From: Pseudomonadota bacterium
Lineage (GTDB): Bacteria > Pseudomonadota > Gammaproteobacteria > JAKAQQ01
Direction: 5' to 3'
Assembly (NCBI GenBank): GCA_021810635.1
Contig: JAJZIH010000010.1
Location: forward strand, 1 to 64,000
Length of the DNA: 64,000 nt
Below the pieces are notes generated by a model. It did not search any database. It worked only from the letters and a program-made list of their open reading frames with translations, and was not told the origin of the DNA. Both the position numbers and the translations under genes were made by a program. Position 1 is the stretch's first letter. Each line of letters opens with the position of its first letter. This document shows positions 63,059-64,000 of this stretch, piece after piece.

Positions 63059-63134
63059 TCCCCGGTAGCTCAGCTGGTAGAGCAGGTGACTGTTAATCAC
63101 CGGGTCGGCGGTTCGAGTCCGTCCCGGGGAGCCA
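63059..63134 (+). tRNA. tRNA-Asn (anticodon GTT), CCA encoded
   Basis: TCCCCGGTAGCTCAGCTGGTAGAGCAGGTGACTGTTAATCACCGGGTCGGCGGTTCGAGTCCGTCCCGGGGAGCCA. Confidence 0.95.
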
Positions 63135-63269
63135 ATTGGACCCGGTGGGATTCGGGTTGTATTTCGTGTGACAGCCTCCGCCGGTGAATGACGGGACCGA
63201 AAAAGCCGGGGACCGGCCCGTGTCAAAGGCCGTGTAGGGGGTTGTAAGCCAAAACCGCCGAAAATTCCG

Positions 63270-63385
63270 TCAGCTCAAGTCCAGCCCGGCGACAATGGCA
63301 TCCAGGTCGATCAACTTCCCATCGCTGTGAAAGGTGTAGTGCCCGTTCAGCAGGATATGCCGCCACGCCGTAGGTGAAATCTGCG
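63270..63385 (-). pseudogene. Tn3-family transposase TnpA, C-terminal remnant
   Basis: Minus-strand translation ITQISPTAWRHILLNGHYTFHSDGKLIDLDAIVAGLDLS*; stop codon lies inside the left IR, as usual for tnpA. Confidence 0.75.
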
Positions 63386-63663
63386 TGATCTGCGCCGATA
63401 CCTATGTCCGCGCTCGCATCGACACCAACACCAACACCAACACCAAGGTACGCGCTGCTGACGCGCTCGAAGCAATGGGACTATCCATCTCGGACGCTAT
63501 CCGTTTACTGATGCTGCGCGTGGCAGAGGAGCGCCGTTTGCCATTCGACGTGAAGGTCCCCAACTCGACCACGCGCAAAGCCATTGCCGAGCTGGAAGCA
63601 GGCAAGGGCAAGAAGTTCGCCAACGTCGATGATCTGATGGCAGACCTGCATGCGGACGATTGA
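63385..63663 (+). CDS. RelB/DinJ-family antitoxin
   Basis: DTYVRARID...MGLSISDAIRLLMLRVAEERRLPFDVKVPNSTTRKAIAELEAGKGKKFANVDDLMADLHADD; GTG start and first codons may be altered by a deletion junction. Confidence 0.85.
   Translation: MICADTYVRARIDTNTNTNTKVRAADALEAMGLSISDAIRLLMLRVAEERRLPFDVKVPNSTTRKAIAELEAGKGKKFANVDDLMADLHADD
63423..63446 (+). repeat. 4 x 6-bp tandem repeat (CACCAA) inside the antitoxin
   Basis: CACCAACACCAACACCAACACCAA, encoding TNTNTNTK. Confidence 0.9.
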
Positions 63664-63931
63664 TCTCGCCTCATCCTTCAAACGCGATTACAAACGTGAG
63701 GCCAAGGGGCAATAGCGGGCCGTGCTCGATAGCGAGCTGAAACCTGTTCTCGTGGCCTTGGCGACCGATCAGCCGCTCGATGCCAGATACCGCGACCATG
63801 ATCTGAGCGGCGATTGGGCGGGTTACCGCGAATGCCACGTCAAGCCAGACCTGCTGCAGATTTATCGCAAGTCAGATACCGACACCCTGAGACTGGCCCG
63901 GCTTGGCTCGCACAGCGAGCTTTTCGGGTGA
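63650..63931 (+). pseudogene. YafQ/RelE-family toxin interrupted by in-frame TAG at codon 22 (63713-63715)
   Basis: MRTIDLASSFKRDYKREAKGQ*RAVLDSELKPVLVALATDQPLDARYRDHDLSGDWAGYRECHVKPDLLQIYRKSDTDTLRLARLGSHSELFG; start overlaps the antitoxin stop. Confidence 0.88.
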
Positions 63932-64000
63932 GCTTGGGCTGACGGAATTTTCGGCGGTTTGGGCTTACAACCCCAACCCGCGCACCGGCAAGGCGCAGAA

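Follow-up and report, generated by a model that had tools for sequence, protein, structure and literature searches.

Is the 737-bp unit at positions 63238-63974 of the window, the 64,000-nucleotide stretch of DNA analyzed here, a mobile element in its own right? The original prediction described it as a compact Tn3-family-like element, derived by deletion of nearly all of the transposase gene tnpA, in which two 42-bp inverted repeats (IRs) enclose a RelB/YafQ-like toxin-antitoxin (TA) pair that could potentially be mobilized in trans. We conclude that the unit, although TIME/MITE-like in structure, is very probably the decayed scar of an ISPsy30-like Tn3-family transposition.

Terminal inverted repeats and the tnpA remnant

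The order of features in the unit is IR, 3' end of tnpA, relB, yafQ pseudogene, IR. The IRs face inward and start with GGGG. The left IR (63238-63279, plus strand) is the tnpA-side end of a Tn3-family transposon, and the right IR (63933-63974, minus strand) starts 1 nt past the yafQ stop codon. The two match at 40 of 42 positions, the mismatches being at positions 14 and 38. When the 1.5 kb around the unit was shuffled 200 times, the IR 42-mer found no inverted match better than 24/42, which upholds the prediction of near-identical repeats around a 737-bp unit. Intact Tn3-family transposons from MAGs of other proteobacteria have ends that match the IRs at 41-42 of 42 positions, and by this match the IRs are assigned to a Tn3-family transposon, as had been proposed. 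The unit thus has the inward-facing Tn3-family terminal IRs of around 38 bp, starting with GGGG, that are expected of a TIME or a Tn3-derived MITE. Like these elements it has no complete transposase gene, tnpA being represented by its tail.

The tnpA C-terminal remnant (63270-63390, minus strand) comprises about 37-41 codons, delimited by homology to intact tnpA ends, and reads ...(A)QITQISPTAWRHILLNGHYTFHSDGKLIDLDAIVAGLDLS followed by a stop codon at 63272-63270, within the left IR. In ungapped DNA alignments, the tail and IR together are 83% identical over 153 bp to the tnpA end of locus L005 from an Oxalobacteraceae MAG and 77% identical over 159 bp to that of locus L004 from a Competibacteraceae MAG. 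These alignments bear out the predicted tnpA remnant ending in the left IR and identify it, by homology, as a genuine Tn3-family C-terminus. The homology to intact tnpA ends stops at around element position 153-159. L004 is a complete simple Tn3 element with tnpR, tnpA, and two ends, and its intact tnpA encodes 1009 amino acids with the Pfam Tn3 DDE domain (PF01526, E = 9.6e-106). A protein search of the host genome with related TnpA sequence returned the tail as the sole match (E = 1.9e-11). No Tn3 transposase domain was found in nine related genomes or in the host genome, a MAG that is 87% complete.

The right IR is identical over 41-42 bp to the tnpA-side ends of L004 and L005. The agreement extends to bases 37-42 (CCCAAG), of which CCCAA encodes the end of tnpA. 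The sole tnpR-side end identified, that of L004, instead diverges from the right IR past base 36. The right IR is therefore inferred to be tnpA-side in origin, on the strength of 5-6 bases and comparison with one tnpR-side end. Because both ends of the unit look like tnpA-side ends, internal deletion of one transposon fits poorly, as one tnpA cannot supply both.

The relB-yafQ toxin-antitoxin pair

The cargo was confirmed as RelB (PF04221, E = 3.7e-20) and YafQ (PF15738, E = 4.1e-25 for the C-terminal 69 amino acids), and the two reading frames overlap by 14 bp at 63650-63663, as expected for the single operon of a type II RelB(DinJ)-YafQ system. The identification of a RelB/YafQ-like pair therefore stood, but the original prediction had missed the damage to both genes. 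In the relB/dinJ-type antitoxin gene (63385-63663, plus strand) the 5' end has been replaced: comparison with four homologues showed that the native ATG and a conserved upstream block, presumably the promoter, have given way to tnpA sequence. The only likely start codon left is GTG 63385, preceded at a distance of 7 nt by AGGTGA. A 12-bp expansion (ACACCA twice, 63422-63433, plus strand) that is absent from the four aligned homologues adds 4 residues where the RelB DNA-binding domain begins.

The yafQ toxin gene (63650-63931, plus strand) is a pseudogene. Codon 22 (63713-63715) is TAG in the unit, TAC in the same-family genome G006, and CAC or CAT in plasmid homologues. A Pfam search of the host genome found this yafQ as the sole YafQ-family match, with the TAG inside the match. 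The pair thus has neither an intact toxin frame nor the native promoter block. It has decayed and appears to work no longer as an addiction module, although it is conceivable that translation restarts at a GTG at 63722 to give an N-terminally truncated YafQ.

Insertion site and flanking DNA

The unit lies downstream of a tRNA-Asn (gtt) gene (63059-63134, plus strand). The DNA behind this gene varies between relatives: in G001, a genome of the same genus, unrelated DNA that includes a GGDEF-type gene (named by eye) separates the tRNA-Asn from the downstream gene that the two genomes share. In so variable a region no empty site could be delimited to the base.

No target-site duplication of the kind that marks a TIME or MITE flanks the unit, the outer bases being tgtag on the left and aaccc on the right. 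The right IR lies within a tnpB-like gene that lacks its 5' half; the remaining 3' part begins at 63975, runs on the plus strand through position 64000 to about contig position 64370, and was assigned to the IS200/IS605 type by eye from its protein sequence. Neither the absent duplication nor the truncated tnpB gene had been recognized in the original prediction. The 5' half of tnpB on the left side would show a plain insertion, but DNA and protein searches found it neither there nor elsewhere in the window, so this reading is not borne out. The tnpB fragment is shared with contig C18 of the host genome (99.5%, a 396-bp repeat) and with G006 (85%), and in both copies the similarity sets in no more than 2 bp from the IR edge. 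The C18 copy is a partial tnpB-like gene at the contig end (163867-164912), and its 3' end lies about 80 bp from a tRNA-Lys gene.

Other features were noted in the surroundings. On contig C21, at about 65280-65640 (L007:2410-2760), the truncated end of a Phd/VapB-like antitoxin gene is followed by the truncated start of a VapC-like gene, a second broken TA pair less than 2.5 kb from the tRNA-Asn; in G006 a VapBC-like pair also adjoins RelB/YafQ. Farther along, C21 66860-71835 (L007:3961-8936) carries a likely mevalonate-pathway cluster, named from sequence only, with diphosphomevalonate decarboxylase-like, GHMP kinase, and Nudix/IPP isomerase-like genes and an HMG-CoA reductase fused to a mevalonate kinase-like domain. 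If confirmed, such a cluster would be unusual for a proteobacterium.

Copies of the unit and the related locus in G006

A scan of ten genomes for the IR, allowing up to 3 mismatches, found only the two IRs of the unit and one in G006, and an exact scan of viral contigs gave zero matches. Searches of plasmids, viral contigs, several hundred related genomes, and the host genome, together with an IR scan of GTDB contigs, turned up no further copy of the complete unit; as the host genome is a 33-contig draft MAG at 87% completeness, other copies or a transposase could lie in its missing parts. The further copies anticipated in the host were accordingly not seen, and the unit does not show the repeated occurrence of a TIME or Tn3-derived MITE. 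At 80% query coverage no plasmid had yafQ joined directly to this IR, and a search for an intact parent Tn3 transposon carrying this RelB/YafQ pair found none.

A related locus lies on contig C15 of G006, where a relB-yafQ-IR segment is 96% identical to element positions 156-737. This locus has neither the left IR nor the tnpA tail and shares only the right boundary of the unit, not the pair of matching boundaries that had been expected of relatives. The full 737-bp unit is therefore private to the locus described here. Since the join between the TA pair and the right IR is common to both genomes it is the older feature, and the left end was either added in the lineage of the window or lost in G006. 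The G006 yafQ contains a +1 frameshift that is not in the window copy. As this frameshift and the TAG codon are not shared, the two toxin genes decayed independently.

Comparison with known elements

The closest published IR match is to MITEPsy2, a 228-bp MITE of the Pseudomonas syringae group that is linked to ISPsy30 (PMC3189936, PMC3191145), the terminal IRs of which differ from those of the unit at 2-3 of 34 positions. Both elements are short, transposase-less, and of Tn3-family origin. However, no TA pair or tnpA tail has been described for MITEPsy2, and several copies of it exist, of which one is flanked by a 5-nt target duplication, whereas the unit has both features within its 737 bp, is single, and lacks a duplication. 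TIMEs and TIME-RES elements (PMC4133298; TIME244 and others, PMC13367494) likewise consist of Tn3-family IRs around tnpA-less DNA. The cargo of TIME-RES is tnpR rather than a broken TA pair, and TIMEs have Tn5563a-type IRs and transpose with 5-6-bp duplications, whereas the unit offers no evidence of mobility. One published TIME (pLM8P2) is also without duplications, so that their absence is no absolute exclusion (PMC4133298).

The TA-carrying Tn3 transposons cataloged by Lima-Mendez et al. (2020, PMC7157771) resemble the unit in having a TA pair inside Tn3-family ends in the order antitoxin, toxin, (tnpA), and one of them, Tn5501.5, provides an earlier case of a truncated toxin beside an intact antitoxin. 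None of the TA types in that catalog is a RelB/YafQ pair of this kind, and the complete tnpA and tnpR of these transposons are missing from the unit. The plasmid RelB/DinJ-YafQ pairs of pALIDE02, pAER-3367, and Xanthomonas citri pXfc38 have 73-83% nucleotide identity to the unit across the whole relB-yafQ pair. In the plasmid copies examined, unlike in the unit, yafQ is intact, the native start and promoter are present, and no 42-bp IR adjoins the yafQ stop codon. Directly upstream of its homologous pair, pXfc38 also carries a 2.16-kb unit (L010:3759-5917) in a TIME-RES-like arrangement. Its IRs are of this type but degenerate, and it contains a resolvase and a tnpA tail while lacking tnpA itself.

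Origin of the unit

The unit could be a genuine non-autonomous, TA-carrying Tn3 mini-transposon that arose by internal deletion of tnpA and was transposed here in trans, its duplication being erased by a later adjacent deletion. The near-perfect and correctly oriented IRs with the TA pair wholly inside would fit such an origin, as would the interruption of the tnpB gene at the outer border of the right IR. TIMEs and TIME-RES elements of 262-1186 bp do transpose in trans (PMC4133298), and the order relB, yafQ, (tnpA) agrees with the known layout of tnpR with the antitoxin, then toxin, then tnpA (PMC7157771). Nevertheless, the lack of a duplication, the single copy, and the missing left end in G006 speak against it, as does the failure to find a transposase in the host or nine relatives, and simple deletion of one tnpA does not yield two tnpA-side ends. 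We consider this origin unlikely. An artificial origin, in which the element junctions, especially that with the 396-bp C18 tnpB repeat, are assembly joins, is suggested by the draft state of the genome and the 99.5% repeat forming the right flank. It is highly improbable, since the junction of right IR and TA pair is independently present in G006 and the contig runs on to 75179, carrying genes that G001 also has downstream of this tRNA-Asn. It is hardly credible that the unit is a minimal mobile addiction cassette, a functional TA-only Tn3 mini-element in which antisense tnpA supplies the antitoxin start and ribosome-binding site and YafQ restarts at GTG 63722.

The evidence thus favors a decayed transposition scar. 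The unit has the appearance of a stranded plasmid-type TA pair caught between the remnants of two transposon ends, not that of a single transposon with an internal deletion. The order of events that we infer begins with a plasmid-type RelB/YafQ pair coming to abut the inner side of a transposon end, the state common to G006. In the host lineage a second tnpA-side end, carrying some 120 bp of tnpA, would then have been fused to relB codon 3 by an illegitimate deletion that removed the TA promoter and start. Neighboring DNA, including the 5' half of the tnpB gene, would also have been lost, leaving no target duplication. The nearly perfect IR pair is a point against the scar explanation, as it argues against very old decay. 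Of the compact, potentially mobilizable IR-TA-IR structure first proposed, the TIME-like outline remains, but there is no target duplication, second copy, detected transposase, or unbroken TA pair to go with it. A matching transposase supplied in trans could, mechanistically, still use the two IRs as substrates, but the unit is an ordinary relic that gives no sign of ever having moved as a unit or of moving still.

On its own the scar has little significance. It adds one more ISPsy30-like Tn3 scar, outside Pseudomonas, to a known class of relics, and near-perfect Tn3 IRs flanking a gene pair are by themselves no proof of a mobile unit. The two related copies, in the window and in G006, each lost the YafQ toxin by a separate mutation but kept the antitoxin frame, and such toxin loss is the expected fate of plasmid-type TA pairs stranded in chromosomes.
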